Shown here in pieces: positions 4,638 through 26,292 of a stretch of 64,000 nucleotides of DNA (its first letter is position 1; every line of letters starts with the position of its first letter). The notes below the pieces were generated by a model, which saw nothing but the letters and a program-made list of their open reading frames with translations, was not told the origin of the DNA and made no database searches. Location: assembly GCF_003386285.1 (NCBI RefSeq), contig NZ_QPNC01000018.1, forward strand, positions 1-64,000, written 5' to 3'. Made by a program: the position numbers and the translations under genes. The DNA comes from Nocardiopsis sp. FIRDI 009 (GTDB lineage: Bacteria > Actinomycetota > Actinomycetes > Streptosporangiales > Streptosporangiaceae).

Positions 4638-6487
4638 TGGGTCTCCTTCGACGACGGGCCGCGGTACAGCGGGTTGGGGATCGGCGGCGCGTCCAGGTGG
4701 AACTCGGCGTCACGCTCGGCCCGCTCGTGGTACCCGCCGCCCAGCAGGCGCTCCCGGTTCAGGCACACCCGCTCGAACTCGGGCTGGAGCAGGTCGAAGG
4801 CGGCGTACCGCTCGGCCAGCTCGGGGAACTCCTCCTGGTAGCGCAGGATCTCGGCGCGCACCAGCTCCCAGAACCGGTCCTCGGGCACGCCCAGCTGCTC
4901 CTCGACCAGCGGCGCCAGGTACCGGAAGTGCCCGATGAACAGCGACTTGGCGATCGAGGACGTCAGTTCCCGGGCGTCGAAGCGCATGAGCACGCCCAGC
5001 GCCTCCTCGGGCAGGTCCGCGTACTCCGGCAGGTCGGTGTCCAGCAGCTTCATGTCGTCCACGAAGTCCTTGACCGCCAGCCGCACCGGGCGGTCGCGGT
5101 CGTCGTAGACCACGATCGCGTTCTCCCCATGCGGGTTGAACGCCAGACCGTAGCGGTAGAGCAGGTGCAGCACGGGCGGCAGGATCGCGCCGAACAGCCT
5201 GGTCAGCCACGCCTCGGCCGACAGCTCCGAGCGCTCGACCAGCTCGGCGGTCAGCGACCGGCCCCGGCCGTCCACGTGCAGCAGGGCGGCCAGGGTGCGG
5301 GCGGTCTCCTCCTGGCGCAGGTGCTCGGTGACCGGCTCGCGCCACAGCGCCCCCAGGAGCTGGCGGTGCCGGTAGGGCGCGTCGGGGATGTCCTCCAGCA
5401 CGGGGTGGCGGACGGCGACGGCGGCCACCTCACCGGGCAGGATGACCTCGCACCGCTCGGACAGGAAGGCGTCCTTGTCGCGGAGCTGGTGCACCCACGT
5501 GGTGCTGGCGGGCGCGGCCCGGCACAGTTCGGTGGGGATGCCCCGGTAGACCATCGTGTTGAGGATGGCCAGCGACAGCTTCACGTTGAGCCGGTCGGGG
5601 CGGGTGAGGTTGGTGAAGGTGCGGATCGACTGCTGGGGCAGGTAGCGGTCGGGGGCGGTGCCCAGGGGGACGATCAGCCCGGCGGCCACCTCGGCGGCGA
5701 ACAGCGGCACGACGACCTCGTCCCACTGCCAGGGGTGGACGGGCAGCCACACGTACTCGTCGGCGCGCTCGCCCGCCTGGTCCTCCAGGCGCGCGGTGAA
5801 CCGCTCCAGGACCTCGGGGTCCAGCTCCTGGGCGCGCAGTTCGGGCTGGGACAGGCCGGGTACGCCGTGGTGCTCGGCCAGCGAGCGGTGGACGGCGATC
5901 CACGGCAGGAGCTGGGCGCGGCGCTCCTCGGGCGGGTACAGCGCCCGGTCGCCGGAGGAGAAACCCACCCGGCCCTTGTTGGCGAAGATCCACGGGTGCC
6001 CGCTCTGATGCCCCTCCAGGTGGGCGTGGTCCAGGTCGGCCAGGCGGGCGGCGGTCGCCTCGCCCTCGGCCAGTCGGGTGTCGGCCGAGAGCGTGGACAT
6101 CAGCTCGCCGACCGTGAACGCCTCCACCGCCGGGTCGACCACCCCGGCCGCCCCCAGGTCGCGCAGCAGCCCGAAGGGCGTACCGGGGCAGGCGGCGCCG
6201 TCGGGGGCGTGCCGCTCGACGCTGCCGGGTTCGACCCGCCAGGCGTCCATGCTGGTCCGGCGGCCGGTGAAGGTGTAGGCGGCGCCGGCGCCGGTCTCGG
6301 CCCGCCAGCGCCCCTCGGCCTCGGGCCCCAGCGGCTCGGGCCGCAGGGCGTACTCGAAGCACAGCTCCGCGACCATCTTGGCGATCAGGTGCTCACAGGC
6401 GCGGTCCCAGCGCTCCGGGGACAGCTCGGTGGGCACGGGCAGCGGATCGGGCGGGGTGACGGGGGGCCTGGTGGCGTGGGTGTCCAT
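4634..6487 (-). CDS. IucA/IucC-family NIS siderophore synthetase (second in operon)
   Basis: This 617-residue NRPS-independent siderophore synthetase adenylates a carboxylate such as citrate with ATP and condenses it with an amine or hydroxylamine. The family signature is clear: HLEGHQSGHPWIFANKGRVG with GHP at 163-165, LPVHPWQWDE, the ATP/substrate segment LNVKLSLAILNTM, the HGEN motif in LAFNPHGENAIVVY, and a FhuF-like C-terminal part. The ATG at 6487 lies 28 bases after the stop of the other synthetase gene. With two different synthetases present, one would make the first carboxylate-amine bond and the other the second, as IucA and IucC do for aerobactin. The carboxylate specificity (type A, B or C) cannot be read reliably by eye. 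Confidence 0.92.
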   Translation of the reverse strand: MDTHATRPPVTPPDPLPVPTELSPERWDRACEHLIAKMVAELCFEYALRPEPLGPEAEGRWRAETGAGAAYTFTGRRTSMDAWRVEPGSVERHAPDGAACPGTPFGLLRDLGAAGVVDPAVEAFTVGELMSTLSADTRLAEGEATAARLADLDHAHLEGHQSGHPWIFANKGRVGFSSGDRALYPPEERRAQLLPWIAVHRSLAEHHGVPGLSQPELRAQELDPEVLERFTARLEDQAGERADEYVWLPVHPWQWDEVVVPLFAAEVAAGLIVPLGTAPDRYLPQQSIRTFTNLTRPDRLNVKLSLAILNTMVYRGIPTELCRAAPASTTWVHQLRDKDAFLSERCEVILPGEVAAVAVRHPVLEDIPDAPYRHRQLLGALWREPVTEHLRQEETARTLAALLHVDGRGRSLTAELVERSELSAEAWLTRLFGAILPPVLHLLYRYGLAFNPHGENAIVVYDDRDRPVRLAVKDFVDDMKLLDTDLPEYADLPEEALGVLMRFDARELTSSIAKSLFIGHFRYLAPLVEEQLGVPEDRFWELVRAEILRYQEEFPELAERYAAFDLLQPEFERVCLNRERLLGGGYHERAERDAEFHLDAPPIPNPLYRGPSSKETQ

Positions 6488-6514
6488 GGTGTTCTCGCTT
6501 CCGGGGAGAGTGGG

Positions 6515-8338
6515 TCAGGGCTGGGCGAGCGGGTTGTCGACCATGCCGTGCATGACGTCGAACTCGGCGTCGCGCTCGGCGCGGTCGTGGAACCCCCCTC
6601 CCATGAGCTGCTCGCGGTTGAGCGCGACCCGGCCCACCTTGGGGGCCAGCAGGTCGAACCACGCGAAACGCTCGGCCAGCTCGGGGAAGCGCTCGTGGTA
6701 GGCCGTGATCTGCTCGCGCGCCAGCGCCCACAGCCGCTCCTCGGAGACCCCGAGCTGGCGCTGGACGATGTCGGCGAGGTAGCGCAGGTGACCGGCGCAG
6801 ATCGCCGACAGCACCGAGTGGGCCAGCTCGCCGGGCTGCCAGCGGTGCAGCATCGCCCGCACGTGGTCGGGGATCTCGGCGTACTCGGGCAGGTCGAAGG
6901 GGAGCAGTTCGACGTCGGAGCCGAAGTCCTTCATGGCGACGCGCACCGGTGTGTCGGTCTCGTCGAAGATGAGCACGATGTTCTCCCCGTGCGGGGTGAA
7001 CGACGCGCCGTACCGGTACAGGTAGTGCAGCACGGGCGGCAGCAGCGCGCCGACGAAGCGCCGCAGCCACTCCTGGGCGGTCAGCCCCGAACGCTCCACC
7101 AGTTCGGTGACCATCGCGCGCCCGTCGGTGCCCTCCAGCAGCAGGCACGCCATGGTGCGGGCGCGCTCGCCCTCGGCCAGGCTGTTGTGCACCGGCTCGC
7201 GCCAGATCGCGCCGAGCAGTTCGTGGAACCGGTAGGGCGCCTGGGGGAGGCGGTCGAAGACCGGGTGCGGGACGGTCGCGGAGGCCACCTCGCCCAGCAT
7301 GACCACGCGGCACTCCTCGCGCAGGAAGTCGTCGCGCGCCACCAGTGACCGGAGCCAGGTGCTGGTGTGCGGCGCGCACGCGGTCTGTGTGCCCGACAGC
7401 CCCCGCCACACCAGGGTGTTGCGGATCATCAGCGGCACCTTGACGTTGCGCCGGTGCGGCCGGTCCAGGTTCATCAGGGTGCGGATGGACTGGAAGGGGC
7501 GGTAGCGGTCGCGGCTGCGGCCGAGCTCGACCACCCGCCCCTGGGCGATCTCGGCGGCGAACAGCGGCGCCACGATCTCGTCCCACTGGAAGGGGTGCAC
7601 CGGCAGCCACAGGTAGGCGTCCGGGTCGCCGCCGCGCGCCCGCACGGCCTCGGCGAACTCGGCGCGCTGGTCGGCGTCGAGCTCCTCCTCGACCAGGCGG
7701 TGCCGGTCGGTGTCGGGCATGGACTGGAAGCGGCCCAGGTCCGGGTGGACGGCGATCCACACCAGGTGGAAGGCACCGCGCGCCTCGGGCGTGTACCGGG
7801 CCGCGTCGGCGGCCGAGAAGCCCAGCCTGCCCTTGTTGAGGAACATGCACGGGTGACCGGTCTGGTACCCCTCCAGGTCCTCGTAGGCCAGGTCGGCCAG
7901 GGCGGCGGCGCCCGGGGTGGCGGCCAGCAGCCGGGCGTCGGCGGTGTGGGTGGCCAGCAGGTCGCGCACGACGTCGGCCAGGGAGTCGCCGGGCAGCCCC
8001 ACGGTCTCCTGGGCGTCGGTGACGAACACGGTCGGGTCCCAGGCCGCCGTGGTGCCCTCCGGGGTGGTCCGGGTCAGGGAGTCGGGGTTGACGTGCCAGG
8101 AGCCGAAGCCGCCCCGGCGGGCGGTGAACCGGTACTCGACGCCGCCGTCGACCGTCAGCGACCACGCGGGGTCGCCCTCGCCGTCCCCCTCGACCGGGAC
8201 GGGCACGACCATCTCCTCGTAGGCCGTCTCGGCGACGACCCGGGCGAGCAGGCGGCGGCCCGCCTCGCGCCAGAGCCGCGCGTCGGGGTGGTCGTCGGCC
8301 TCGGTCGCGCCGGGCAGCGGGGTGGTGTCAGTGGACAT
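6515..8338 (-). CDS. IucA/IucC-family NIS siderophore synthetase (first in operon)
   Basis: This is a 607-residue member of the same synthetase family as its downstream neighbour, but clearly diverged from it, so not a recent duplicate. It has YEDLEGYQTGHPCMFLNKGR with GHP at 161-163, LPVHPFQWDEIVAPLF, RRNVKVPLMIRNTL, and SFTPHGENIVLIFDE. The ATG at 8338 is chosen because it follows a GAGGACC site and overlaps the 3' end of the MFS exporter gene by 11 bases, a spacing typical of coupled operon genes; an upstream in-frame start at 8377 lacks this. It should form one of the two amide or hydroxamate-side bonds of the siderophore in the cytoplasm. Residues near 45-60 are an acidic, low-complexity loop. 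Confidence 0.92.
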   Translation of the reverse strand: MSTDTTPLPGATEADDHPDARLWREAGRRLLARVVAETAYEEMVVPVPVEGDGEGDPAWSLTVDGGVEYRFTARRGGFGSWHVNPDSLTRTTPEGTTAAWDPTVFVTDAQETVGLPGDSLADVVRDLLATHTADARLLAATPGAAALADLAYEDLEGYQTGHPCMFLNKGRLGFSAADAARYTPEARGAFHLVWIAVHPDLGRFQSMPDTDRHRLVEEELDADQRAEFAEAVRARGGDPDAYLWLPVHPFQWDEIVAPLFAAEIAQGRVVELGRSRDRYRPFQSIRTLMNLDRPHRRNVKVPLMIRNTLVWRGLSGTQTACAPHTSTWLRSLVARDDFLREECRVVMLGEVASATVPHPVFDRLPQAPYRFHELLGAIWREPVHNSLAEGERARTMACLLLEGTDGRAMVTELVERSGLTAQEWLRRFVGALLPPVLHYLYRYGASFTPHGENIVLIFDETDTPVRVAMKDFGSDVELLPFDLPEYAEIPDHVRAMLHRWQPGELAHSVLSAICAGHLRYLADIVQRQLGVSEERLWALAREQITAYHERFPELAERFAWFDLLAPKVGRVALNREQLMGGGFHDRAERDAEFDVMHGMVDNPLAQP

Positions 8339-9671
8339 GCTGGTCCTCTTCCTCACGGTTGCGCGCTCGCGGATCACGCGCGGGTGCGGGGTCGGTCTCG
8401 TGGGTGGTCGGGGGTGTGCGGGCGGCCCGGGGACCGCCGGCCGGGTCGGCGGCCGCCGCGTCCTCGGCGGGACCCTCGGGGAGGGCGATGAGCAGGAGGG
8501 ACAGCACCGCGAACAGTCCCGCCCCGGCGGCCAGCGGCAGGCCGAGTCCGGCGGTGGCCAGCCCCGTGGCCAGCAGTGGGCTGATCAGGGTGGCGCCCAC
8601 GCGCACGGTCTCCACGGCGGCGAACGCCGGGCCGCGCGCCCGCGTGACCGCGAACACCCGCAGGTCCAGGGCGACGTGGCCCAGCCCGAGCCCGGCGCCG
8701 AACACCACCCGGCCCAGGGTCAGCAGGGCCAGGTCCGGAGCGAGGAACTGCACGAGCAGGCCCAGCGCCGCGACCGAACACGCGATCGGCAGCAGGGCGC
8801 GGCCCAGCACGGTGTGGACCCGCCCGGCCAGCGGCAGGACCGCGAGCACGGTCAGCTGCGGCAGCAGGAACAGGGCGGCGGCCACGGTGGGGCCGATCCC
8901 GGAGTCCTCGGCGTAGAGGGTGAAGAACGGGCGGACCACCAGGCGCGCCGACTCGGCGGCCAGGACGGCGGCGCACACCGCCGCCAGGGGCAGCAGCAGT
9001 GCCGGGCGCGACCACCGCCGGGCGGGGCGCGCGCCGGTCGACCGGGTCGGGGGACCCCCGTCGGCCGGGTGCTCCGCGTCGCCGCCGCAGGCGGGTTCGT
9101 CCCGGACGGCGGGCTCACCGGCACGGCCGCGCGGCAGGTGGCGGTGGCACAGCACGGCCAGCGCCACGTACAGCAGCGCGCACGCGGCGATCCCCCAGCG
9201 CGGGTTGGGCAGCGCCATGATCCCGGCGCCCAGGACCGTGGCGGTCACGGTCCCGACGTTGATGATGTAGGTGTGCGCCATGACGTCGCGCATCCGGTCG
9301 TTTCCGCTGCCCACGAAGGCCGGGTAGGCCAGCGCGAAGGACATGGTGACCGCCACCTGCACCGCCGAGAGCACCGTGAAGACCGTGTAGGTCGGCGCGG
9401 CGGCGATCATCAGCTCCAGGACGGCCGAGATCCCCAGCCCCCAGGTGACCAGGGTCGCCATCGGGAAACGGCGCGCCACCAGACCCCACAGCGGCATCGC
9501 GACCAGGGCGGTGACCCGGCACACCCAGATGTAGGTGCCGGTCGCCGACATGTCCGTGACGCCGAACAGACGCTCGAAGAGCTGGGGGTAGAAGGGGCTC
9601 AGGGCCACGTCCGACACCAGGTGCAGGACGATGACGAGCAGGTACAGGCGGCGGAAGGCGGGGACGGTCAC
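8328..9671 (-). CDS. MFS transporter, probable siderophore exporter
   Basis: This 447-residue major facilitator protein has about twelve hydrophobic segments, beginning LYLLVIVLHLVSDVALSPFYPQL. A charged central loop at about residues 180-220 is typical of the domain linker. The C-terminal 50 residues are a polar tail rich in Ala, Pro, Asp and Arg, ending EEEDQHVH. The GTG start at 9671 overlaps the hydroxylase stop by four bases (GTGA), placing it in the biosynthetic operon. Exporters in this position in NIS clusters (for example the aerobactin, staphyloferrin and schizokinen types) release the finished siderophore. Export rather than import is inferred from the separate ABC importer encoded across the divergent promoter. 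Confidence 0.85.
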   Translation of the reverse strand: MTVPAFRRLYLLVIVLHLVSDVALSPFYPQLFERLFGVTDMSATGTYIWVCRVTALVAMPLWGLVARRFPMATLVTWGLGISAVLELMIAAAPTYTVFTVLSAVQVAVTMSFALAYPAFVGSGNDRMRDVMAHTYIINVGTVTATVLGAGIMALPNPRWGIAACALLYVALAVLCHRHLPRGRAGEPAVRDEPACGGDAEHPADGGPPTRSTGARPARRWSRPALLLPLAAVCAAVLAAESARLVVRPFFTLYAEDSGIGPTVAAALFLLPQLTVLAVLPLAGRVHTVLGRALLPIACSVAALGLLVQFLAPDLALLTLGRVVFGAGLGLGHVALDLRVFAVTRARGPAFAAVETVRVGATLISPLLATGLATAGLGLPLAAGAGLFAVLSLLLIALPEGPAEDAAAADPAGGPRAARTPPTTHETDPAPARDPRARNREEEDQHVH

Positions 9672-11017
9672 TCGCCGTCCCCCGGGGTCTGGGGCGCGCC
9701 GAAGGACGTGAAGGCGGTCCGCTCGGGCAGCCGGTAGACGGTGCGGCCGGTCAGGCTGTTGAGGATGGTGGCCGCCCGCCACGCGCCCAGACCCAGGTCG
9801 GGGGTGCCCACACCGTGGGTGTGCAGCTCGGCGTTCTGCACGTGGATCGGCGCGGTCAGCGCCGGGTCGGTGCGCAGGCGGTGGTCGGCGTCGATCGCGA
9901 ACCGGCCGCGGTCGTCGGTCTCGATCAGCTTCAGGACCGGCTCCAGGAAGTCCGGCCGCCGTTGGGCGTACCCTGAGGCGGCCACCACGCCGTCGGTGCG
10001 GGTGGTGAACACCCGGTCCTGCTCCCGGTGGCGGAAGGTGAGCGCGATCCGGCCGTCCTCCTCGCGCGCCCGGAGAAGCTCGCAGTGGGCGCGCAGGCTC
10101 ACGTCGACCGGGGCGCCGCCGACGCCGCGCTCGTACAGCGCGTCGTGGATGTCGGAGATGGTGTCGGCGCTGATGCCCTTGTACAGCTGCCACTGGGCGG
10201 GCACCAGACGGTCCCTGGTGGGCTGGGGCAGCGCGTGGAAGTAGCGGGTGTAGTCGGGGGTGAAGTGCTCCAGGCCGAGCTTGGAGTACTCCATCGGCGC
10301 GAACGCGGGGGAGCGGGTGAGCCAGTTGATCCGGGTGTCGGCGTGGGCGGGGGAGCGCAGCAGGTCGAGGAAGACCTCGGCGCCCGACTGTCCGGAGCCG
10401 ATCACGGTCAGGTCGCGCGCGCCGTCCAGCCCGCGCACCCGGTCCAGGTACTCGGCGGCGTGGAACACGCGGTCGCCCGCCAGCTCGCGCAGCGCCTCGG
10501 GCAGGACCGGTTCGGTGCCGATACCCAGGACCAGGGCGCGGCCGCGTACGGTGCGGCGGACGCCGGAGGACTCCTCGTACTCGACGGTGAACACGCCGTC
10601 GTCGTGGTGGACCGCGCCGACCCGGGCGTCGAAGCGGCACGAGTCCAGGCCGGTGGCCACCCAGCGGCAGTAGTCGTCGTACTCGCGGCGCGGCACGTGG
10701 AAGTTCTCGGAGAAGTAGAACGGGAACAGCCGGTCGTGGTGGCGCAGGTAGGACAGGAAGGACCAGCGGCTGGTGGGGTCGATCAGGGTGACCAGGTCGG
10801 CCAGGAAGGGCACCTGGAGACGGGCGCCGTCCAGCAGCAGACCGGGGTGCCAGGAGAAGCCGGGGCGGGCCTCCAGGAAGCGGGCGCTCAGGCCGGGGAC
10901 GCCGTCGGCGAGGGCGGCCAGGGCCAGGTTGAAGGGGCCCAGGCCCACGCCCACGAGGTCGTGGACCTCCCGGTCGGGGCCGGCGGTGTCGGGGGTGGGG
11001 TTCGGGGCGGCGGTCAT
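9668..11017 (-). CDS. FAD/NADPH N-hydroxylase (lysine/ornithine/diamine monooxygenase)
   Basis: This 449-residue enzyme is of the IucD/SidA/RhbE/DesB class. It hydroxylates the terminal amine of lysine, ornithine or a diamine, the first step to a hydroxamate. The FAD-binding loop GVGLGPFN is at 23-30, the NADPH-binding loop GSGQSGAE at 207-214, and the C-terminal ASGY motif lies near 340. The segment GISADTISDIHDALYERGV is also conserved in the family. The gene overlaps its upstream decarboxylase by four bases and its downstream exporter by four. With a decarboxylase next door, the substrate is more likely a diamine (diaminopropane or cadaverine) than the amino acid itself; this is inferred from context. 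Confidence 0.9.
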   Translation of the reverse strand: MTAAPNPTPDTAGPDREVHDLVGVGLGPFNLALAALADGVPGLSARFLEARPGFSWHPGLLLDGARLQVPFLADLVTLIDPTSRWSFLSYLRHHDRLFPFYFSENFHVPRREYDDYCRWVATGLDSCRFDARVGAVHHDDGVFTVEYEESSGVRRTVRGRALVLGIGTEPVLPEALRELAGDRVFHAAEYLDRVRGLDGARDLTVIGSGQSGAEVFLDLLRSPAHADTRINWLTRSPAFAPMEYSKLGLEHFTPDYTRYFHALPQPTRDRLVPAQWQLYKGISADTISDIHDALYERGVGGAPVDVSLRAHCELLRAREEDGRIALTFRHREQDRVFTTRTDGVVAASGYAQRRPDFLEPVLKLIETDDRGRFAIDADHRLRTDPALTAPIHVQNAELHTHGVGTPDLGLGAWRAATILNSLTGRTVYRLPERTAFTSFGAPQTPGDGE

Positions 11018-12597
11018 CGGGCCTCCTCCAGGTTCTGGACGGCCGCGGCCTCGGCGTCACCGGCGGCGACGACCAGGGCGAACAGGGCGGCGATGTCGTC
11101 GGGGGTGGTGTCGGGGTTGAGGAGGGTGAGCTTGAGCCAGACCCGTCCGTCGATGTGGGTGCGGCCCACCACGGCCTGTCCGCGCTCCAGCAGGCGGCGG
11201 CGCAGGCGCGCGTTGACCTGGTCGCTGTGGGGTCCCGCGTCGTAGCGGAAGACGACGGTGGTCAGTGCGGGGGCCGCCGCCAGGGTCAGCTTCGGGGAGG
11301 CGACCACCTGGGCGCTGGCGTCCAGGGCCAGGGAGCGGCAGGCGTCCACCATGCGGCCCAAGCCCTCCCTGCCGAGGGCGCGCAGGGTGACGGCGATCTT
11401 GAACACGTCCGCGCGCCGGGTGGTGCGCAGCGAGTAGCCGAGCAGGCTGGGGTAGCCCGCCTCCTCGTCGTCGGTCGGGTTGAGGTAGGACACCGACCGC
11501 GACAGCGGCGCGAACGAGGCGCGTTCGCGGGTGAGCAGGACGCCCGCCGCCACCGGCTGCCAGCCGAGCTTGTGCAGGTCCAGGCTGACCGAGTCGGCTC
11601 GGCCGAGGCCGTCCAGCAGGCCGCGCAGCCGGTCGGAGAAGAGCAGCCCCCCACCGTAGGCGGCGTCCACGTGCAGCCACACGCCGTGCTCGGCGGCGAT
11701 GTGCGCGACGGCGGCCAGCGGGTCGATGCCGCCCAGGTCGGTCGTGCCCGCGGTGGCCACGACGGCGACGGGGACGTCGCCGTCCTGGCGCACCCGGTGC
11801 AGGGCCCTGCGCAGGGCCTCGGGGCGCATCCGGTGCTCGGAGTCCACGGGGACGGTGACGACCGCGTCCTCGCCCAGCCCGAGCAGGGCGGCGGCGCGCT
11901 GGACCGAGAAGTGCGCGACCTGTCCGCACAGGATGCGGGGGCGGTCCCCGTTCGCGGCCGCGGCCACGCCCGCGCGGGTGGCGTCGAGGCCGGAGTGGGC
12001 GGCCAGCGCGTGGTCGCGGGCCAGCAGCAGCGCGGTCAGGTTGGACTCGGTGCCGCCGGAGGTGACCACGCCCCCGGCCCGCTGTCCGTCGTACCCGGCC
12101 AGGTCGGCCAGTTCCGCGATGACCCGGGTCTCCATGGCGGTGGCGGCCGGGGCCTGGTCCCAGGAGTCCAGGGACTGGTTGAGGATCGAGGCGACGGTGT
12201 CGGCCGCCACGGCGACCGCCAGCGGGGGGCAGTGCAGGTGGGCCGCGCAGTGCGGGTGGGCGGGGTCGGCGGCCCCCGCGGCGAGGACGCCGGTGAGGCG
12301 GTGCAGCACCTCGGCGGAGCGGTCGGGGCCGTCGGGCTGGACGGTGTCCAGCGCGTCGGCGACCATCGTGGCGACCTGCTGGGGGGTCATGGCGGGCAGG
12401 GGGCCGCCGCGGCGGGTCGAGGAGTCGACCAGGGACCGGGCGGCGGACTCGACGAGGGAGGCGACGGTGGCCGGTCCGCTGGCGGCGCCGGGGTGACCGA
12501 GGGATCCGGCGAGAGCGGATGTGGTGAGGTCGGGGAGGGGGCGGTCGGCGGCGTCGGTGACGGTCGTCGGGGGCCCGGTCCTGGGCGTGGTGTGCAT
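11014..12597 (-). CDS. Group II PLP decarboxylase (diaminobutyrate/lysine type)
   Basis: This 527-residue fold-type I PLP decarboxylase resembles DesA, RhbB and Ddc, which turn lysine or 2,4-diaminobutyrate into cadaverine or 1,3-diaminopropane. Visible are VTSGGTESNLTALL (180-191, phosphate binding), HVDAAYGG (309-316, the PLP aspartate) and SLDLHKLGW with the Schiff-base lysine near 343. The N-terminal 60 residues are Ala/Thr-rich and poorly conserved. It supplies the amine arm that the next gene hydroxylates. No aminotransferase for making diaminobutyrate (RhbA/Dat type) is in the window, so either lysine is the substrate or that enzyme is elsewhere. The start codon is ATG 12597, with weak Shine-Dalgarno support. 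Confidence 0.88.
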   Translation of the reverse strand: MHTTPRTGPPTTVTDAADRPLPDLTTSALAGSLGHPGAASGPATVASLVESAARSLVDSSTRRGGPLPAMTPQQVATMVADALDTVQPDGPDRSAEVLHRLTGVLAAGAADPAHPHCAAHLHCPPLAVAVAADTVASILNQSLDSWDQAPAATAMETRVIAELADLAGYDGQRAGGVVTSGGTESNLTALLLARDHALAAHSGLDATRAGVAAAANGDRPRILCGQVAHFSVQRAAALLGLGEDAVVTVPVDSEHRMRPEALRRALHRVRQDGDVPVAVVATAGTTDLGGIDPLAAVAHIAAEHGVWLHVDAAYGGGLLFSDRLRGLLDGLGRADSVSLDLHKLGWQPVAAGVLLTRERASFAPLSRSVSYLNPTDDEEAGYPSLLGYSLRTTRRADVFKIAVTLRALGREGLGRMVDACRSLALDASAQVVASPKLTLAAAPALTTVVFRYDAGPHSDQVNARLRRRLLERGQAVVGRTHIDGRVWLKLTLLNPDTTPDDIAALFALVVAAGDAEAAAVQNLEEAR

Positions 12598-12677
12598 GAG
12601 GCGTCAGAACTCCGTTTTCCGTGACGGGTCGGTAACGCGCGGATGGCGGGCATGGGCAGGGGCGGGTGCCGCGAACG

Positions 12678-12693
12678 GACGCCGGCCGGCGTC
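12678..12693. repeat. 16-bp palindrome between the GNAT and decarboxylase genes
   Basis: GACGCCGG followed at once by CCGGCGTC lies in the 187-base gap between the GNAT stop (12785) and the decarboxylase start (12597). It could be an RNA hairpin that tunes the ratio of upstream to downstream message or protects an end. No iron box is visible in this gap. Confidence 0.4.
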
Positions 12694-12784
12694 GGCGGGA
12701 GGTCGCGGTCGGACCGGGGGCGGTTCGGCGGTCCCGCCCGGACGGTGGCGGGCCCGACCGGGCGGGGACGCGCGAGGCGGCCGG

Positions 12785-13357
12785 TCAGCCGCGGAGCGGC
12801 ATGATCAGGCAGTGGTGGCGTCTCCAGCCGTCGTGCGGGGCCAGTTCGCCCACGTGGAGCCACCCGTTGCGCACCGCGATGTCCAGGGCGTGGTCGTTGC
12901 CCTCGGCGACCAGGGAGGCGGCACGCTCCTCGGTGCGCCCGGACAGGAAGAACGGCATGGCGCGCTCGACGAGCCCGGTGTGCCGGTAGGGGGTGCGCAC
13001 GAGCCCCTCGCACACGGCCAGGGTGCGGCCTGGGCGTTCGTCGACCATGTCCTGGGCGTCCACGCCCGGGGCGGGGGTGAACCCGTCCCACCAGCCGGTC
13101 GTGGTCGGCAGGGTGTACCCGTAGACGAACCCCACCAGGTCGCCGTCCACGTGTGCGACGGTCATCCGGAATCCGGGGCGGGCCGCGCTGAACGCCAGGC
13201 GTTCGCCGAAGGGCGGGTCGTTGTGGTCGGGCAGGTGCAGGACGTGGGCGTAGACCTCCTCGTAGGCCGAGACCCAGGGGGTGAGGTCGGCCAGGACGTC
13301 GGCGCCGGTGAGGTTGCGCAGGTCCAGCTGGGTGGTGGTGGGGGCCGAAACGGCCAT
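12785..13357 (-). CDS. GNAT acetyltransferase opening the siderophore operon
   Basis: This 190-residue protein is of the Gcn5-related acetyltransferase fold. Strand-helix elements include MTVAHVDGDLVGFVYGY and the acetyl-CoA site region CEGLVRTPYRHTGLVERAM, with an HTG where many GNATs have GxG. The end, DIAVRNGWLHVGEL, is the typical N-x-GW C-terminal strand. ATG 13357 follows AGGAG by six bases, so the longer frame starting inside the iron box (13432) is rejected. It lies 81 bases downstream of an almost perfect iron box. It might acetylate the N-hydroxy-diamine (the job of IucB or RhbD), but it is shorter than that family and lacks its pattern, so self-protection or another acyl transfer is also possible. 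Confidence 0.75.
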   Translation of the reverse strand: MAVSAPTTTQLDLRNLTGADVLADLTPWVSAYEEVYAHVLHLPDHNDPPFGERLAFSAARPGFRMTVAHVDGDLVGFVYGYTLPTTTGWWDGFTPAPGVDAQDMVDERPGRTLAVCEGLVRTPYRHTGLVERAMPFFLSGRTEERAASLVAEGNDHALDIAVRNGWLHVGELAPHDGWRRHHCLIMPLRG

Positions 13358-13437
13358 GGCGGTCTCCTGTGTGTGGGGGACGGGGTCGGTGGTACGCGGT
13401 CCGGGGGCGGCCGCGTGCCGGATGACCAGCATGTTAA

Positions 13438-13456
13438 TTAGGGCAGGCTAACCTAA
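13438..13456 (-). promoter_or_regulatory. Iron box (IdeR/DmdR1-type operator) of the biosynthetic operon
   Basis: TTAGGGCAGGCTAACCTAA agrees at 17 of 19 positions with the actinomycete consensus TTAGGTTAGGCTAACCTAA. It lies 81 bases upstream of the GNAT start and directly after the stop of the SbnH-like gene. Repression by an Fe(II)-loaded IdeR/DmdR1 protein is expected, with induction of the operon in low iron. Confidence 0.88.
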
Positions 13457-14773
13457 TCATGTCAAGGGTGAGTGTTGGAGGGTGTCCCGTGCCACAGTCG
13501 CGACCGGTGCCCGGCGCGTCGTGACGGTCACGCGCGGCGCCCCCGGATGCGCCAGGAAGGCGGGCATCGCGAACTCGTGCCCGTAGGCGCCCGCGTTCGG
13601 GAAGACCAGCACGTCACCGGCGCGCACGGACGCCACGCGCACGTCCCTGGCCAGAACGTCCTCGGGCGTGCACAGTTCACCGGACACGGTCACCGGGACG
13701 TCGGCCACCCCCGGACGGGGCAGTGCCGAGGGCCACGCCCGCCCGGGCAGGACCGCGAAGTTGTGCCGGATCTCCCACGACGTCGGCAGCTGGAAGTGGT
13801 TGATCCCACCGCGCACCACCGCGAAGTGACCGCCGTAGGACGACTTCACGTCCGTCACACGGGCCACGTACCAGCCGGTCGGCGCGGCGATCCACCGCCC
13901 CGGCTCGAACACGACCTCCACACCCGGGTCGCCCAGCTCCGCGAGCGCGGCGCCGAAGGCCGCCAGATCGAAGGAGGCGTCCCCCTCCTCGAAGGGCACC
14001 CCCAGCCCCCCGCCCACGTCCACGACCCGCAGGTCCACGTCGTGGGCGCGCGCGGTCGAACGGGCCCACTCCAGACACCAGCGCACGTAGGCGGCGTGCG
14101 CGGCGGCGTCGGTGTTGCCGCTGACCGCGTGTACGTGGAAACCCACCAGGTCCAGGCCGGGCAGCAGGGCGGCCGTGCGCAGCGCCGAGGGCACCAGCGG
14201 TTCGGGCACGCCGAAGGGGCCGGGGGTGCCGCCCATGACCAGGGCGCCGCTCACCGGCACCCGCTCGGGGTTCACCCGCAGCGTCACCGGCATGACCGTG
14301 CCCGCCTCGCGCGCCGCCGCCGAGATCCGGTGCAGCTCCAGCTCGCTCTCGGCGTTGACGACGACGTCGGCTCCCTCCCGGGCGCGCAGCCGCGCCAGCC
14401 CCGACAGCAGCTCGGGGGTCTTGCCGGGACCGCTCACCGCGATCCGTCCCGGCCGCGGGCCGTCCCCGCGTCCGTCCAGCGCGGCCAGGCAGGCGCGCGC
14501 CTCGTACAGCGAGGCGGCCTCGAAACCGTCCACCGCCTCGGCCAGGTGGGCCAGGACGGGAGGGAAGCCGTTGGACTTGGCGGCGAAGTACACCCGGGCC
14601 CAGGCGGGCAGTGAGGCACGCAGCGTCCGGGCCCGGTCGGCGGCCAGGGAGGGGTCGTAGACGTATCCGGATCCGGGATCGGCGGCGAGCGCGTGGGCGG
14701 CCTCGCGCACCCGCTCGGGGATCCGGTCGACGGGGAGCGCGGGGGCGTTCTCGAAGGAGCGGGGCGGTTCCAC
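13457..14773 (-). CDS. SbnH-like fold-type III PLP decarboxylase
   Basis: This 438-residue alanine-racemase-fold PLP enzyme is related to diaminopimelate/ornithine decarboxylases and especially to SbnH, which decarboxylates citryl-diaminopropionate during staphyloferrin B synthesis. The Schiff-base lysine is K66 in VYFAAKSNGFPP. Other motifs are GFHVHAVSGNTDAAAH, VDVGGGLGVPFEEG, VVFEPGRW, the active-site cysteine in GELCTPEDVLARDV, and FPNAGAYGHEFAM. The GTG start at 14773 follows GGAAGGA. It lies between the binding-protein gene and the iron box, on the same strand as the other biosynthetic genes. Having this enzyme as well as a group II decarboxylase is unusual for a simple dihydroxamate-citrate pathway and suggests a modified or mixed product. 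A role in general diamine synthesis cannot be excluded. Confidence 0.82.
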   Translation of the reverse strand: MEPPRSFENAPALPVDRIPERVREAAHALAADPGSGYVYDPSLAADRARTLRASLPAWARVYFAAKSNGFPPVLAHLAEAVDGFEAASLYEARACLAALDGRGDGPRPGRIAVSGPGKTPELLSGLARLRAREGADVVVNAESELELHRISAAAREAGTVMPVTLRVNPERVPVSGALVMGGTPGPFGVPEPLVPSALRTAALLPGLDLVGFHVHAVSGNTDAAAHAAYVRWCLEWARSTARAHDVDLRVVDVGGGLGVPFEEGDASFDLAAFGAALAELGDPGVEVVFEPGRWIAAPTGWYVARVTDVKSSYGGHFAVVRGGINHFQLPTSWEIRHNFAVLPGRAWPSALPRPGVADVPVTVSGELCTPEDVLARDVRVASVRAGDVLVFPNAGAYGHEFAMPAFLAHPGAPRVTVTTRRAPVATVARDTLQHSPLT

Positions 14774-14837
14774 GGCGGGTCCTTCCGGTGTGGTGGGGCG
14801 CCCCGGACACAGGGGGTGTCCGGGGTCCGACACGACG

Positions 14838-14873
14838 GAGGGGCCCGTTCGTCGATGGGCGTACGGGCCCCTC
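14838..14873 (-). terminator. Hairpin between the binding-protein and SbnH-like genes
   Basis: GAGGGGCCCGT and ACGGGCCCCTC form a perfect 11-bp stem around a 14-base loop. It lies 92 bases after the binding-protein stop. It probably terminates that transcript fully or partly, giving more binding protein than decarboxylase. Confidence 0.7.
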
Positions 14874-14965
14874 AGCGGTCTCGTCTGGTGGTGCGTGTTC
14901 GTTCGGACGCCGCTGGGGCTTCCGAACACGGGCCGAAGCGAAGCGGAGGCCCAGAACAAGCAGGG

Positions 14966-15997
14966 CTAGCGCTGCGGGTCGACCCCGAAGATCTCGGCCA
15001 TGTCGTCGAGCACCGCGTGGGCGGCGATCAGGCCGACACCGGAGATCCAGTAGGCGTCGTCGACCTCGGTCTTGGCGCCCTCCAGCTCGCTCCACAGGGG
15101 GCTGTTGGTGTACTCGTCCCGCTGCTCGCCGACACCGTCCTGGCCGCCGTCGTCGTAGGCGGCGACGAAGATGCGGTCGGCGTCCAGGTCGAGCAGGCGC
15201 TCCTGGCTGTGGTAGGTGACGATGTCCTCGGCCTCGGTGGAGGTGCCCTCACCGGAGGGCAGGCCCATGTCGTCCAGGATCACACCGATGTAGGAGTTGC
15301 GCGTGTACAGGCGCACACCCTCCGCGTCACCGGCGAACCGCACGATGGAGACCGTGGGCGCCTCCCCGCCCTCGGCCTCGACGATCGCCTCGCCGATCGC
15401 GGCGGCCCGCTCCTCGTACTCGGTGATGAGGGCCTCGGCCTCGTCCTCCACGCCCAGCGACTCGGCGGTCAGGCGCAGGTTGTCCTTCCACGTCGCGCCG
15501 GTGGTCTCGGACATGACGGTCGGGGCGACCTCGCTGAGCTGGTCGTAGCCGTCGCCGTGGCGCACCTCGGCGGACAGGATCAGGTCCGGCTCGGTGCCCG
15601 CGACCAGCTCGGGGCTGATGTCCCACAGCAGACCGACCGGGACGGCCTCGTCGTGGGTGCCGGTGTTCCAGTCGCTCTCCACCAGGTAGTCCGGCAGGGC
15701 GTCCACGTCCTCGGCGAAGGTCGTGAAACCGACGACGTTGCCGCCCAGGGCCAGCGTGGCGTCCACGTAGGTCGAGTCGAGGGGCAGGACCCGCTCGGGG
15801 GCGGCCGGGATCTCGGTTTCGCCCATGGCGTGCTCGACGGTCCGGGGGAAGCCCTCGGAGGAGCCGCTCGGGGCCGCGCCGTCGTTACCGGCGTCGTCGG
15901 CGGGACCGGCGGCCCCGCAGGCGGTGAGCAGGCTGACGGCCGCGGCGACGGCCACGGCGGGAAGGCCCGTGCGGCGCAGGAGGGAGGAGGATGTCAT
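14966..15997 (-). CDS. Iron-siderophore ABC transporter substrate-binding lipoprotein
   Basis: This is a 343-residue class III (FecB/FhuD-type) periplasmic-binding lipoprotein. The signal peptide runs through LPAVAVAAAVSLLTAC, with the lipobox LTAC near residues 24-27, so the protein is anchored outside the membrane by a lipid-modified cysteine. The mature part has two lobes, with PERVLPLDSTYVDATLALG in the first and a LIAAHAVLDDMAEIF end. It should bind the ferric siderophore and hand it to the FecCD-type permease encoded on the other side of the shared promoter. ATG 15997 is the only start giving a full signal peptide. Overlapping iron boxes lie about 120-150 bases upstream, so low-iron induction is expected. 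Confidence 0.92.
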   Translation of the reverse strand: MTSSSLLRRTGLPAVAVAAAVSLLTACGAAGPADDAGNDGAAPSGSSEGFPRTVEHAMGETEIPAAPERVLPLDSTYVDATLALGGNVVGFTTFAEDVDALPDYLVESDWNTGTHDEAVPVGLLWDISPELVAGTEPDLILSAEVRHGDGYDQLSEVAPTVMSETTGATWKDNLRLTAESLGVEDEAEALITEYEERAAAIGEAIVEAEGGEAPTVSIVRFAGDAEGVRLYTRNSYIGVILDDMGLPSGEGTSTEAEDIVTYHSQERLLDLDADRIFVAAYDDGGQDGVGEQRDEYTNSPLWSELEGAKTEVDDAYWISGVGLIAAHAVLDDMAEIFGVDPQR

Positions 15998-16114
15998 GAG
16001 GAAACTCGCAATCGGGGTCGGTACTCGTCCTCGCGACCGTGCCGAACGGGGGGAGCACTGTCGCCGACGATGTGTTGTCCCAGGCCGGGACGTGGCAAAC
16101 TTAGATCATCACCG

Positions 16115-16133
16115 TATGGCTAGGCAAACCTAA
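16115..16133. promoter_or_regulatory. Iron box A in the divergent importer promoter
   Basis: The 19-mer ending GCTAGGCAAACCTAA matches the IdeR/DmdR1 consensus at 15 of 19 positions. It lies between the binding-protein gene (minus) and the first permease gene (plus), overlapping a second, weaker box. Confidence 0.75.
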
Positions 16134-16148
16134 GTTAGGTTTACCTGG
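16130..16148. promoter_or_regulatory. Iron box B, overlapping box A
   Basis: The core AGTTAGGTTTACCTGG matches the iron-box consensus at about 13 of 19 positions and shares four bases with box A. Paired overlapping boxes fit binding of two regulator dimers to opposite faces of the helix, which would shut both divergent promoters. Confidence 0.55.
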
Positions 16149-16172
16149 CCCTCGTCATGAGGGGAGCAGTGG

Positions 16173-17273
16173 GTGAGTGACACCCCCGGGGCCGCGACCG
16201 CCGGCCCCGTCACCGCGCCCGGGAACGGCCTCGCGTCCGCCGCCGACGACCCCCCGCCCACCGGACTGATCGGCGCCCGCCGGGCCCGCAGGGTCGCCGG
16301 CCTGGGGCTCCTGGCGGTCCTGCTCGCACTGGTGGCGCTGAGCAGCGTCCTGCTCGGTGCGCGCACGCTCGACCCCGCCACCGTCTGGCAGGCGCTGTCC
16401 CACGCGGCCAGCGACGAGGCCAACATCATCGTCAACGAGATCCGCCTGCCGCGCACCGTGCTCGGCCTGCTCGCCGGGCTCAGCCTCGGCCTGGGCGGCG
16501 CCCTCATGCAGGGGCACACGCGCAACCCCCTGGGCGACCCGAGCATCCTCGGCGTCACCTTCGGCGCCGCCTTCGTGGTGGTCCTGGGGATCCACTTCCT
16601 CGGCATCGACGACCTGCGCACCCAGGCATGGCTGGCGTTCGCCGGCGCCGGAGCGGCGGCCGTGGTCGTCTACCTCATCGGCTCGGTGCCCGGCCGCGGA
16701 CCCACCCCCATCACCCTGGCCCTGGCCGGTACCGCGGTCAGCTGGCTGATGTACTCCCTGGTCTCGGGGATCGTCCTGCTCGACCAGGACACCATGGACA
16801 ACTTCCGCTTCTGGCGGGTGGGCTCCCTCACCGGACGCGACCCCTCGATCATCTCCGAGATGCTCCCCTTCGTGATCGTCGGCGTCGTCCTGGCGCTGGC
16901 CAACACCCGTGCGCTCAACGCCCTGGCGCTGGGCGACGACACCGCCCGCGCCCTGGGCTACCGCGTCGGCTGGGCCAGGGCCACCGGTCTGCTCGCCATC
17001 ACCCTGCTCACCGGCGTGACCGTGGCCGCCTGCGGCCCGATCGCCTTCGTCGGACTCATCGTCCCGCACCTGGCCCGCAGCGTGGTCGGCTCGGACCACC
17101 GCTGGCTGCTGCCCTACTCCGCGCTGCTCGGCGCCATCCTGCTCATGGCCGCCGACGTCCTCGGCCGCTTCCTGGCCCCGCCCGGGGAACTCCAGGTCGG
17201 GGTGGTGCTCGCCATCCTGGGCGCCCCCTTCTTCATCCACGTCGTCCGACGCAGGAAACTTCTCTCCCTATGA
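16173..17273 (+). CDS. FecCD-family iron-siderophore ABC permease (first subunit)
   Basis: This 366-residue inner-membrane permease is of the BtuC/FecCD fold. After a polar N-terminus of about 45 residues come the usual hydrophobic helices, with family signatures RLPRTVLGLLAGLSLGLGGALMQGHTRNPLGDPSILGV and, near the end, GPIAFVGLIVPHLARSVVG plus a terminal RRRKL. The GTG start at 16173 lies after GGGGAG at a good distance. It forms a heterodimer with the next gene product to pass ferric siderophore into the cytoplasm. The downstream start overlaps its stop by four bases (ATGA), so the two subunits are co-translated. Confidence 0.92.
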   Translation: MSDTPGAATAGPVTAPGNGLASAADDPPPTGLIGARRARRVAGLGLLAVLLALVALSSVLLGARTLDPATVWQALSHAASDEANIIVNEIRLPRTVLGLLAGLSLGLGGALMQGHTRNPLGDPSILGVTFGAAFVVVLGIHFLGIDDLRTQAWLAFAGAGAAAVVVYLIGSVPGRGPTPITLALAGTAVSWLMYSLVSGIVLLDQDTMDNFRFWRVGSLTGRDPSIISEMLPFVIVGVVLALANTRALNALALGDDTARALGYRVGWARATGLLAITLLTGVTVAACGPIAFVGLIVPHLARSVVGSDHRWLLPYSALLGAILLMAADVLGRFLAPPGELQVGVVLAILGAPFFIHVVRRRKLLSL

Positions 17274-23725: not shown

Positions 23726-23761
23726 ATGTCAAACACGGATATCTGGAGTCACCCCCCATGA
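23726..23761 (+). CDS. Possible 11-codon leader peptide
   Basis: An ATG after CCGGAGA opens a frame encoding MSNTDIWSHPP, whose TGA stop overlaps the ATG of the next gene (ATGA). The arrangement would couple translation of the larger gene to that of the leader. The peptide has no run of one amino acid suggesting attenuation, so it may be chance. The next gene also has its own GGAG at about ten bases, which weakens the case. Confidence 0.3.
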   Translation: MSNTDIWSHPP

Positions 23762-24411
23762 CCTTCCTCCCCCCACCGCCGCACATGTACGGCCCACCGC
23801 CACCGCGGAGCGGTCGCGCGGTCGCGAGTCTCGTACTGGGGATCGTCAGCCTGGTCGGCTGCTTCGCCCTCGTCGTTCCGCCGTTCATCGGTCTGCTCCT
23901 GGGATGGCTCGGGATCCGGCAGATCGACCGGGGCGAGCGCAGCGGCCGGGGGCTCGCCGTCAGCGGTCTGGTCATCAACGCCGTTGCGGTCGCGCTGACA
24001 CTGCTGGCGCTGGTCGGGGCGGCCCTCGACGGCACCGAGGTGGAATCGGGTACCCCGCCCTCGGTCCGCCCGTCGGCCTCCGCGTCCGCGGTGTCCTCTC
24101 CCCCTCCTCCCTCACCCAGCCCGTCCCCGTCGCCGAGTCGCGACGACGACCGGACCGACGATGACGACGGTGGCCGGACGGCTTCCGAACCCGAGGAGGA
24201 ATCGGAGCCGGAACCCGCGCCGGAGCCCGCGCCCGCGCCCGAACCGGAGGAGGAACCCGAGCCCGCGCCGGAACCCGAACCGGAGCCTCAGCACCCGGCG
24301 GGGGCCACCGCCCTGTGCGAGGACGGCACCTACAGCTACTCCGAGCACCGCCGCGGTACGTGTTCCCACCACGGCGGCGTGGCGCTGTGGATCAACCGGC
24401 CGCCGTCCTAG
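23758..24411 (+). CDS. DUF4190 membrane protein with DUF3761 C-terminal domain
   Basis: This 217-residue protein has three parts. Residues 20-85 are a DUF4190-type unit with two membrane helices (ASLVLGIVSLVGCFALVVPPFIGLLLGWLGI and LAVSGLVINAVAVALTLLALVGAA). Residues 95-180 are a low-complexity linker, first Ser/Pro, then Asp, then alternating Glu-Pro-Ala. The last 35 residues are a DUF3761-type module (ALCEDGTYSYSEHRRGTCSHHGGVALW) with two cysteines likely to form a disulfide. The likely topology puts the linker and the cysteine module outside the cell as a stalked surface domain. Function is unknown. The Glu-Pro repeats may be prone to length change. Confidence 0.75.
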   Translation: MTFLPPPPHMYGPPPPRSGRAVASLVLGIVSLVGCFALVVPPFIGLLLGWLGIRQIDRGERSGRGLAVSGLVINAVAVALTLLALVGAALDGTEVESGTPPSVRPSASASAVSSPPPPSPSPSPSPSRDDDRTDDDDGGRTASEPEEESEPEPAPEPAPAPEPEEEPEPAPEPEPEPQHPAGATALCEDGTYSYSEHRRGTCSHHGGVALWINRPPS

Positions 24412-24452: not shown

Positions 24453-25766
24453 TCACCGGGCCGGGACGGAACGCTCCCTGCGCACGACCGCCCGGACGCC
24501 CACCGGCTGGAGCGCGAGCGCCGGGCGGGGGCGGACTCCGTCGGCCCCGACCAGCTCCAACCGCACGCGCGCCCGCAACGCCGAGGCGATCACCTCGATC
24601 TCGCGCAGGGCCATGGCGGCCCCGACGCAGCCGCGCCGGCCCCCGCCGAACGGGAAGAACGCGTAGCGGTGGGCGGGACCGCCACCGTCCAACCACCGCC
24701 CAGGTCGGAAGGACGCGGGCTCGGCGAACCACCGTTCGTCCCGGTGGGTCACCCACTGGCTGAGTCCCAGCACCGTCCCGGGGGGCAGGACGTAACCTCC
24801 CGCCTCGAACGGGCGCACGGTCTCCCGGCTGATCACCCACGCGGGCGGGTACAGCCGCATGGCCTCCTTGGCGGCGGCCCCGGCGAAGTCCGTCCCCTCT
24901 CCGCCCGGGCGTCCGCCCTCGGCCACCCGCCCGTCCGCCTCGGCGTCCTCACCCAGGGCGAAGAAGAGCCAGGTCAGGGCGTCGGCCGTGGTCTCGTATC
25001 CCGACATCAGCAGCGTCGCCAGCTCGTCCCGCACCTCCGCGAACGACGGCGGCGGGTCGCTCTCCAACAACCGGCCCAGCGCCGTGGTGCCGCCGTCGGG
25101 CCGGTGCTCGTCGACCAGGTCCGCCAGCACCCGGTCCAGGGCCCGCAGCGCACGGCGCAGCTCCAGGTTGACCGGGGTCGGCACCCAGCGGGGCAGGCGC
25201 GGAGCCGAGGTCAGCCGCATGATCGCGCCCACCGCCTCAGCCAGGATCCGACCGCGCGAGTCCAGCTCACGCCCGGCGACGTGCTCGGCTCCCACCCGCA
25301 TGGTCAGGTCGGACATGGCCTCGTGCACGTCGATCTCCTGGCCGTCGTGCCAGGTGTCGACCAGGCGCGCGACCGCCTCGCGCGCCGCGTGCGCCAGGTC
25401 GGTCAGCCGGCCGCTGCGGAAGGCGGGCCGCAGGCGGGCGCGCTTGCGCTCCCAGTCGACGCCCTCGCTGTTCATCGTGGCGAGCGGGAAACCCGTCCCG
25501 CCCCTGCGGCGGACGCCCGGACGGAGCTTGACGACGGTCTCGCCCCGGTCGACGAGGACACGGCCGATGTCGTCGGGGTGGGCGAGCAGGACGTTCGAGG
25601 GGGTGAGCGTGACCACGTCGCCGTGCTCGCGCGCCGCGCGGGTGAGGAACCCCAAAGGATCGAGGGCGTAGTCGGCGACGTTGGCGGTGCCGCGCCCGTC
25701 GCGCGGGCCCGGGGGAGCGGGCCCCGGGACGGTCGGGGAGGCCGTCACGTCGCGCGCCCCCGCCAC
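24453..25766 (-). CDS. Cytochrome P450, probable cross-linking enzyme of a cittilin-like RiPP
   Basis: This is a full-length P450 of up to 437 residues. The heme loop FPFGGGRRGCVG carries the thiolate cysteine near residue 380, the I-helix reads LMSGYETTADALTW (oxygen-activating threonine pair), the K-helix ExxR is KEAMRLYP, and the PERF-like segment is ASFRPGRWL. There is no fused reductase and no membrane anchor, so it is a soluble class that needs ferredoxin and a reductase. GTG 25766 gives the longest form; GTG 25748, after a GGGGG run, is an equally good start. It lies 58 bases after the stop of a 27-codon gene for a peptide ending YIYY, on the same strand. In the myxobacterial cittilin pathway one P450 forms the biaryl and biaryl-ether bonds in a YIYY core, so that is the inferred role. 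Confidence 0.8.
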   Translation of the reverse strand: MAGARDVTASPTVPGPAPPGPRDGRGTANVADYALDPLGFLTRAAREHGDVVTLTPSNVLLAHPDDIGRVLVDRGETVVKLRPGVRRRGGTGFPLATMNSEGVDWERKRARLRPAFRSGRLTDLAHAAREAVARLVDTWHDGQEIDVHEAMSDLTMRVGAEHVAGRELDSRGRILAEAVGAIMRLTSAPRLPRWVPTPVNLELRRALRALDRVLADLVDEHRPDGGTTALGRLLESDPPPSFAEVRDELATLLMSGYETTADALTWLFFALGEDAEADGRVAEGGRPGGEGTDFAGAAAKEAMRLYPPAWVISRETVRPFEAGGYVLPPGTVLGLSQWVTHRDERWFAEPASFRPGRWLDGGGPAHRYAFFPFGGGRRGCVGAAMALREIEVIASALRARVRLELVGADGVRPRPALALQPVGVRAVVRRERSVPAR

Positions 25767-25824
25767 GGGGCGGACCCGCGCCGCGGGGGCGACACGGGCC
25801 CGGGAAACCAGTCCACCAGGTGGC

Positions 25825-25908
25825 CTAGTAGTAGATGTAGGGGGCGGTCAGCCGCTTGCCGTCCACGAGTCCGAGCTTGGCGGCGATGCGGTAGGCGGCT
25901 CTCTTCAC
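25825..25908 (-). CDS. Cittilin-like RiPP precursor peptide, 27 aa, C-terminal core YIYY
   Basis: The GTG at 25908 is six bases after a strong GGAAGGA site, and the frame runs 27 codons to a TAG. The peptide starts MKRAAYRIAAK, continues LGLVDGK and ends RLTAPYIYY. The first two-thirds is a basic, helical leader; the last four residues are three tyrosines and one isoleucine. Published work on cittilins from Myxococcus xanthus describes exactly this plan: a 27-residue precursor with a four-residue C-terminal YIYY core, cross-linked by a P450 and released by a prolyl endopeptidase encoded elsewhere. Here too the residue before the core is proline. A promoter-like sequence lies upstream and the P450 gene directly downstream. 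Too short for usual gene calling. No expression evidence is available. Confidence 0.82.
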   Translation of the reverse strand: MKRAAYRIAAKLGLVDGKRLTAPYIYY

Positions 25909-26292
25909 GGGGGATCCTTCCACTCGGTTCCGGACCCGTGCGGGGCCGGATACCGGCGGAATCTACACAGCGCCGGTCGGGCGGACAACGGGCGCGGAGG
26001 TGACCGCTTCCTTACCTTCGGGCGGTGTGGACATGGCGGCAGGGCACAGGTCGCCGCCCTGAGCCGCGCCGATCGGCTCGTGGTCGGCGATCGTTCAGGG
26101 AACGGGCGGTAGGACGTACACCGTGTCCACGTGTCACCCCCGCGGGTACCCACGGTGTCCGGAACGACGGGGTCGGCTGTCGACTGATGAGAACGCTGTG
26201 GGAGTCGTGCCGGGGCGTCGCGCGGCGGGGTATGTGCCCGCGGCTAGGGTGGTGCGCTGTCGGGACGGACGTGTGTGGAGGGGCGGGGCATT
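25909..26292. other. Divergent intergenic region of the precursor and DUF2293 genes
   Basis: This stretch carries the minus-strand promoter candidate at 25960-25988 for the precursor peptide. Apart from that I see no gene, no repeat of note and no recognisable operator. The frames crossing it are short or of shadow composition. Confidence 0.5.
25960..25988 (-). promoter_or_regulatory. Sigma-70-type promoter of the cittilin-like precursor gene
   Basis: On the minus strand TTGTCC and TAGATT are separated by exactly 17 bases. This would place transcription start about 45 bases before the start codon, leaving room for the GGAAGGA ribosome site. Confidence 0.55.

Follow-up and report, generated by a model that had tools for sequence, protein, structure and literature searches.

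A probable three-gene cittilin-type RiPP locus in Nocardiopsis and a possible exchange of its tailoring enzyme in the wider family

The window analysed here is a stretch of 64,000 nucleotides from Nocardiopsis sp. FIRDI 009 (RefSeq assembly GCF_003386285.1, contig NZ_QPNC01000018.1, positions 1 to 64,000 of the forward strand), and our subject is a small locus within it for a cittilin-type ribosomally synthesized and post-translationally modified peptide (RiPP). A 27-codon precursor gene and the adjacent cytochrome P450 gene very likely form a real locus of this kind. Sequence comparison further makes it probable that the locus has three genes, encoding the precursor, a P450 that likely cross-links the three core tyrosines into two rings, and a methyltransferase that would O-methylate the product (Table 1). 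An earlier note on this DNA took positions 24453..25988 for the whole cluster; the cluster is larger, and the methyltransferase gene had been overlooked. Its identification of a cittilin-type cluster in an actinomycete stands, but the precursor-P450 pair is already known in kind, cittilin-type RiPPs being in print and the precursor family catalogued by NCBI.

In the first step of the proposed pathway, the leader would be recognised by the P450, which would join the three tyrosines of the YIYY core through one biaryl (C-C) and one aryl ether linkage. A prolyl oligopeptidase from another part of the genome would cut the leader after its last proline, and the methyltransferase would O-methylate the product. 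The predicted [M+H]+ is 617.261 for YIYY less four hydrogens and 631.276 once a methyl is added. The number and kind of the cross-links, the cleavage and the methylation with its site are thus predicted, as would be any biological role. Other contigs of the genome carry two prolyl oligopeptidase (PF02897) genes, in line with the peptidase outside the cluster that the earlier note cites for the myxobacterial cittilins; they are candidates, and PF02897 is also found in five of 14 control genomes.

Table 1. Coordinates of the cittilin-type locus and its signals in the window
Feature	Position	Strand	Basis and remarks
Class I S-adenosylmethionine (SAM)-dependent methyltransferase, 269 aa	22764..23573	+	PF08241 (9.4e-20); convergent with P450; likely O-methylating tailoring enzyme
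DUF4190/DUF3761 protein gene	23758..24411	+	Pfam; between P450 and methyltransferase
Cytochrome P450, likely tyrosine cross-linking enzyme	24453..25766, likely start 25748	-	PF00067, relatives, tree
Cittilin-family precursor gene, 27 aa	25825..25908	-	Leader VKRAAYRIAAKLGLVDGKRLTAP, core YIYY; translation and NF038373
Ribosome-binding site GGAAGGA of precursor	25915..25921	-	Six bases 5' of GTG; read from sequence
Promoter-like TTGTCC-17-TAGATT	25960..25988	-	TTGTCC 25988-25983, TAGATT 25965-25960; read from sequence

The precursor frame starts with GTG at 25908, ends with TAG at 25825 and encodes the peptide VKRAAYRIAAKLGLVDGKRLTAPYIYY. It scores 50.1 bits against the NCBIfam model NF038373 ("cittilin family RiPP precursor", cut-off 34), aligned over residues 1-27 of 27, with an E value of 7.9e-11 in a profile search of the genome. 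Its C-terminus is the four-residue YIYY with a proline directly N-terminal to it, as the earlier note had read. The 27-codon gene, the ribosome-binding site and the promoter motif of that note are likewise all found in place. Purine-rich sites also precede the precursor starts of relatives. The promoter motif is a weaker point of the case, as among 19 other aligned Nocardiopsis-type loci only that of N. lucentensis has one (TTGTTC/TAGATT). The view that gene calling would overlook such a peptide no longer holds, insofar as NCBIfam has a model for it. Two other classes of aromatic RiPP were considered and rejected: atropopeptides have tryptophan in their cross-linked core, and this 27-residue peptide has none; biarylitides, which are also P450-cross-linked, have a five-residue precursor, whereas here 27 residues end in YIYY. 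No precursor match was found on plasmids.

The P450 open reading frame is complete (437 aa; PF00067 at 1e-42), and its translation contains the heme motif FFPFGGGRRGCVG, the ExxR motif KEAMR and the I-helix sequence SGYETTADAL. In the alignment, the P450s of relatives start at a position matching GTG 25748, and a frame drawn from 25766 probably includes six codons ahead of the true start. The gap between precursor and P450 is 58 bases from 25766 and 76 bases from 25748; the adjacency and completeness claimed for the P450 gene hold, while its 58-base spacing falls if the later start is used. The window P450 is 58-91% identical to those of 19 other loci of the family, and outside the actinomycetes its nearest named relatives belong to Myxococcus, Archangium and Cystobacter (45-47% identity), with which it falls into one large clade in the tree. 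Four metagenome P450s (P0020-P0023), 51-53% identical to the window P450, form a clade near the Nocardiopsis-family cittilin P450s. Membership of the window P450 in the aminopyruvatide family was rejected, its score against the ApyO equivalog model being 143.4 bits where the cut-off is 525.

The pair could be real and yet the P450 could make one cross-link or another set (one C-C bond, or C-O bonds only), giving a cittilin-like product on a different scaffold. The published sources, cited throughout for the parts of their text that were available, record such variation: ApyO makes one C-C bond in a YLY core in aminopyruvatide, also a P450-cross-linked aromatic RiPP (PMC13192836), and cittilin-type clusters have P450s of differing substrate range (PMC12352619). 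The identity of just 45-47% to the named myxobacterial relatives leaves room for the same. Nevertheless, core and precursor length agree with the descriptions of cittilin and the precursor scores above the cut-off of the cittilin model, and we regard this alternative as distinctly unlikely.

Conservation, which the earlier note had proposed as a check, is found for the precursor and for the P450 beside it. The counts that follow rest on the candidates scored per genome (for the precursor, all in the genus, up to 26 in the family and up to 32 in Streptomyces; up to 64 for the methyltransferase in the genus and up to ten for a sulfotransferase, described below, in the family), and weak matches could escape them. 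Of the 40 genomes of the genus, 12 have a precursor above the cut-off, as have 20 of the 298 genomes of the family, which include these 12 and leave eight in sister genera; the corresponding figures are 7/394 for the class and 3/246 for the genus of genome G423, assigned to Streptomyces by its named relatives in the tree. Altogether, 24 different genomes including that of the window carry one, in every case beside a P450 (24/24), although the reading frame is broken in two of these P450s (G010 and Streptomyces G1027). Each of the 12 precursors of the genus adjoins an orthologous P450, and all 12 have the core YIYY. The cores of the eight sister-genus loci are YIYY (four), YVYY (three) and YTYY (one), and those of four Streptomyces loci are YSYY (three) and YMYY (one). 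The cittilin-type reading of the earlier note is thus borne out by the precursor model, by the pair in 12/40 and eight further genomes, by the constant YIYY of the genus and by the myxobacterial affinity of the nearest named non-actinomycete P450s.

As to the stop codons or frameshifts that would have spoken against function in relatives, single defects are seen in two of the family loci: the P450 of G010 is frameshifted, and the precursor of G500 (L122, reverse strand, position 9001) no longer has a stop behind its core YTYY, so that the frame reads on through NQCRSRSA to a TGA and gives 35 residues. N. lucentensis has, between precursor and P450 and in the P450 frame, a second, diverged precursor copy without a stop (VKGVAHRIAVKLRLIDGRRLAAPYDYS, L111:8134-8211). 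A working leader-P450 fusion was considered there and rejected, the conserved P450 start lying downstream and residues 1-58 of the AlphaFold2 model having a predicted local distance difference test score (pLDDT) below 50; the copy may be only a decayed tandem duplicate. In Streptomyces G423 (L130), the YSYY precursor and its P450 lie between genes that, judged by eye, resemble ATPases of dipeptide/oligopeptide ATP-binding cassette transporters.

The methyltransferase emerged from a tblastn comparison of the window genes with 20 related loci. It is found near the P450 in 12/12 loci of the genus and 0/8 of the sister genera, while the other flanking genes are mostly not common to the loci of the genus, and this PF08241 gene supplies the methyltransferase expected of such a cluster. 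Sixteen of the 40 genomes of the genus have a match of at least 54% identity, and those reaching at least 60% are the 12 precursor genomes and no others (12/12 against 0/28, p ~2e-10, treating as independent genomes that are kin). The flanks fall into several contexts, with G016, G021 and G031 together, the window with N. lucentensis, G029/N. quinghaiensis and G001/N. halotolerans partly alike, and little shared among the rest; the linkage of methyltransferase and P450 is therefore not simply frozen synteny. The distance from stop to stop between P450 and methyltransferase is 6-62 bases in seven loci; it rises to 360 in G001, to 481 in N. lucentensis and to 879 in the window (10 of the 12 genus loci measured; the N. 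halotolerans value was unusable and no P450 end was located for G036, G519 and Allonocardiopsis opalescens). The DUF4190/DUF3761 gene that lies between them in the window is probably an intruder outside the pathway, because seven of the ten measured loci leave no room for it. A methyltransferase was not seen in the four Streptomyces loci, three of which hold only ~1.6 kb past the precursor, so that only G423 is informative.

Several observations weigh against a functional three-gene locus of this kind. The pooled ratio of non-synonymous to synonymous polymorphism (pN/pS) is 0.58 over 20 precursors, only moderately below 1, and this, together with the shortness of the frame, is what can be said for a chance open reading frame upstream of an ordinary P450. 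Set against it are the E value in the genome and the constant place of all 24 above-cut-off precursors beside a P450. As a control, 56 loci whose P450s are more distantly related were scanned; a recognised frame was found in 20, of which one encodes a short aromatic-ended peptide, unlike cittilin (the control script recovered 18 of the 24 real precursors and is not fully sensitive). The chance frame is ruled out by this conservation, and its probability is negligible. The earlier note had called coincidence unlikely, and the NF038373 match with 23 further precursor genomes agrees. Beside the intact precursor of G010 (L116), the P450 is split over two frames, reflecting either a decayed cluster or a sequencing error. 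In the phylum of a myxobacterial metagenome-assembled genome, a precursor search gave 0/282 genomes, and a Myxococcus P450 query of 264 genomes of that phylum gave none above 45% identity among the matches listed; both negatives probably reflect a sample without Myxococcus, and so probably say nothing on Myxococcus itself.

The remaining points concern the methyltransferase. Its gene is convergent with that of the P450, so that the two are not in one transcript; in the window an extra gene separates them; its family is widespread in actinomycetes, with many named matches at 54-60% identity; and in N. halotolerans its match is split in two, so that the frame may be broken there or the sequence faulty. 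It could accordingly be a neighbour with another job, leaving the product unmethylated like cittilin B. Four precursor-free genomes of the genus fit this, having a 54-55% identical copy and no such P450 within 1.5 kb, which means that an enzyme of this type can exist independently of the pair; a fifth, G026, has a 68-residue fragment of 52% identity at a contig edge. Its presence near the P450 in all 12 loci despite several different flanks, the exact coincidence of genomes at or above 60% identity with precursor genomes, and another tailoring-type enzyme in the same slot in sister genera speak for the methyltransferase as part of the locus, and the neighbour explanation appears rather unlikely.

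That other enzyme is a sulfotransferase (PF17784, 1.6e-52 for that of G428), which in all eight sister-genus loci lies directly downstream of the P450 on the same strand, in the slot of the methyltransferase. It is absent from the 12 loci of the genus and from that of G423. In G359, G550 and G536, possible sulfotransferase starts overlap the P450 stop. Among the matches listed, enzymes at least 60% identical to that of G428 are present in 8/298 family genomes, exactly those with the sister-genus loci; the next best has 51% identity, and 105/298 genomes have some relative at E <= 1e-40. A convergent frame at this place in sister genera ("component 2") was rejected as an artefact of the gene picker, which had called it antisense to the P450 end and the sulfotransferase.

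In a quick P450 tree, made without bootstrap and with precursor sequences kept out of the alignment, the methyltransferase loci form one clade (11 rows with G010 left out; Shimodaira-Hasegawa-like approximate likelihood ratio test (SH-aLRT) 95). The sulfotransferase loci do not, since A. opalescens branches outside both, the other seven rows forming a branch with SH-aLRT 89. The fewest changes on this tree are needed if the methyltransferase took the place of the sulfotransferase once, on the stem of Nocardiopsis, and this course is suggested. We tentatively propose, at somewhat less than even confidence, that a one-slot swap produced two chemotypes in the family: in the older state, kept by sister genera, a dedicated sulfotransferase would sulfate the bicyclic core, adding 79.957 to the mass; in Nocardiopsis a dedicated methyltransferase, having taken its place in a single event on the stem of the genus, would methylate the core, independently of the myxobacterial CitC. 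Among the best 120 relatives of the methyltransferase, no named organism is a myxobacterium.

In Myxococcus xanthus, the cittilin core is YIYY and is released by a prolyl endopeptidase encoded outside the cluster. Cittilins A and B of this organism (CitA/CitB/CitC) likewise involve a 27-residue precursor, a P450 and a methyltransferase (PMC8708641, PMC11285071), and CitC O-methylates cittilin as the last step (PMC11285071); in the related myxobacterial product myxarylin, it is the N-terminus that is N-methylated (PMC8708641). The system described here differs in its actinomycete host, its convergent methyltransferase gene, the 45-47% identity of its P450 to the nearest named myxobacterial ones and the lack of a detected CsrA in the genus. 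The available text of PMC8708641 says that methyltransferase genes are strictly absent from the genome data of other microorganisms, which does not hold here because the Nocardiopsis loci have one. The sister-genus loci (eight genomes, apparently including Murinocardiopsis flavida, A. opalescens and Nocardiopsis potens) resemble that of the window in their precursor and in a P450 59-70% identical to its own, and differ in having the co-directional sulfotransferase. Shandoamide, the syrinamides and citreamide (san, syr and cre clusters) are also called cittilin-type P450-modified RiPPs; they were expressed in Streptomyces albus J1074 and mined with CitB among the queries, in a set of 1057 P450-RiPP clusters (Liu et al. 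2023, as described in PMC12352619 and PMC12299652). That set may include the present loci. Sulfotransferases are reported in some biarylitide clusters (PMC13417212). This is the only hit for cittilin with sulfotransferase in an open-access literature search, which gave none for cittilin with YIYY or for biarylitide with methyltransferase and Nocardiopsis, which listed no paper whose title concerns a cluster of this type, and whose reach mostly excludes subscription papers. Elsewhere in the window, positions 4634-17273 hold siderophore-type genes (IucA/IucC synthetase 4634-6487, periplasmic binding protein 14966-15997, FecCD permease 16173-17273).

Cittilin A is named as a possible CsrA inhibitor in the text available from PMC10731981. 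CsrA was found in 0/40 genomes of the genus (3/14 control genomes were positive); the producer's own CsrA is therefore not a likely target, and a CsrA target could only be in another organism. These results extend a guess at two genes to a three-gene pathway that can be predicted in culturable actinomycetes, with exact masses to look for, and correct the printed view, as worded in the available part of PMC8708641, that non-myxobacterial genomes lack the methyltransferase. They point to a slot beside a very small RiPP locus that is exchanged between sulfotransferase and methyltransferase while precursor and P450 stay, and they raise the question of what job the molecule may have in bacteria in which no CsrA was found.
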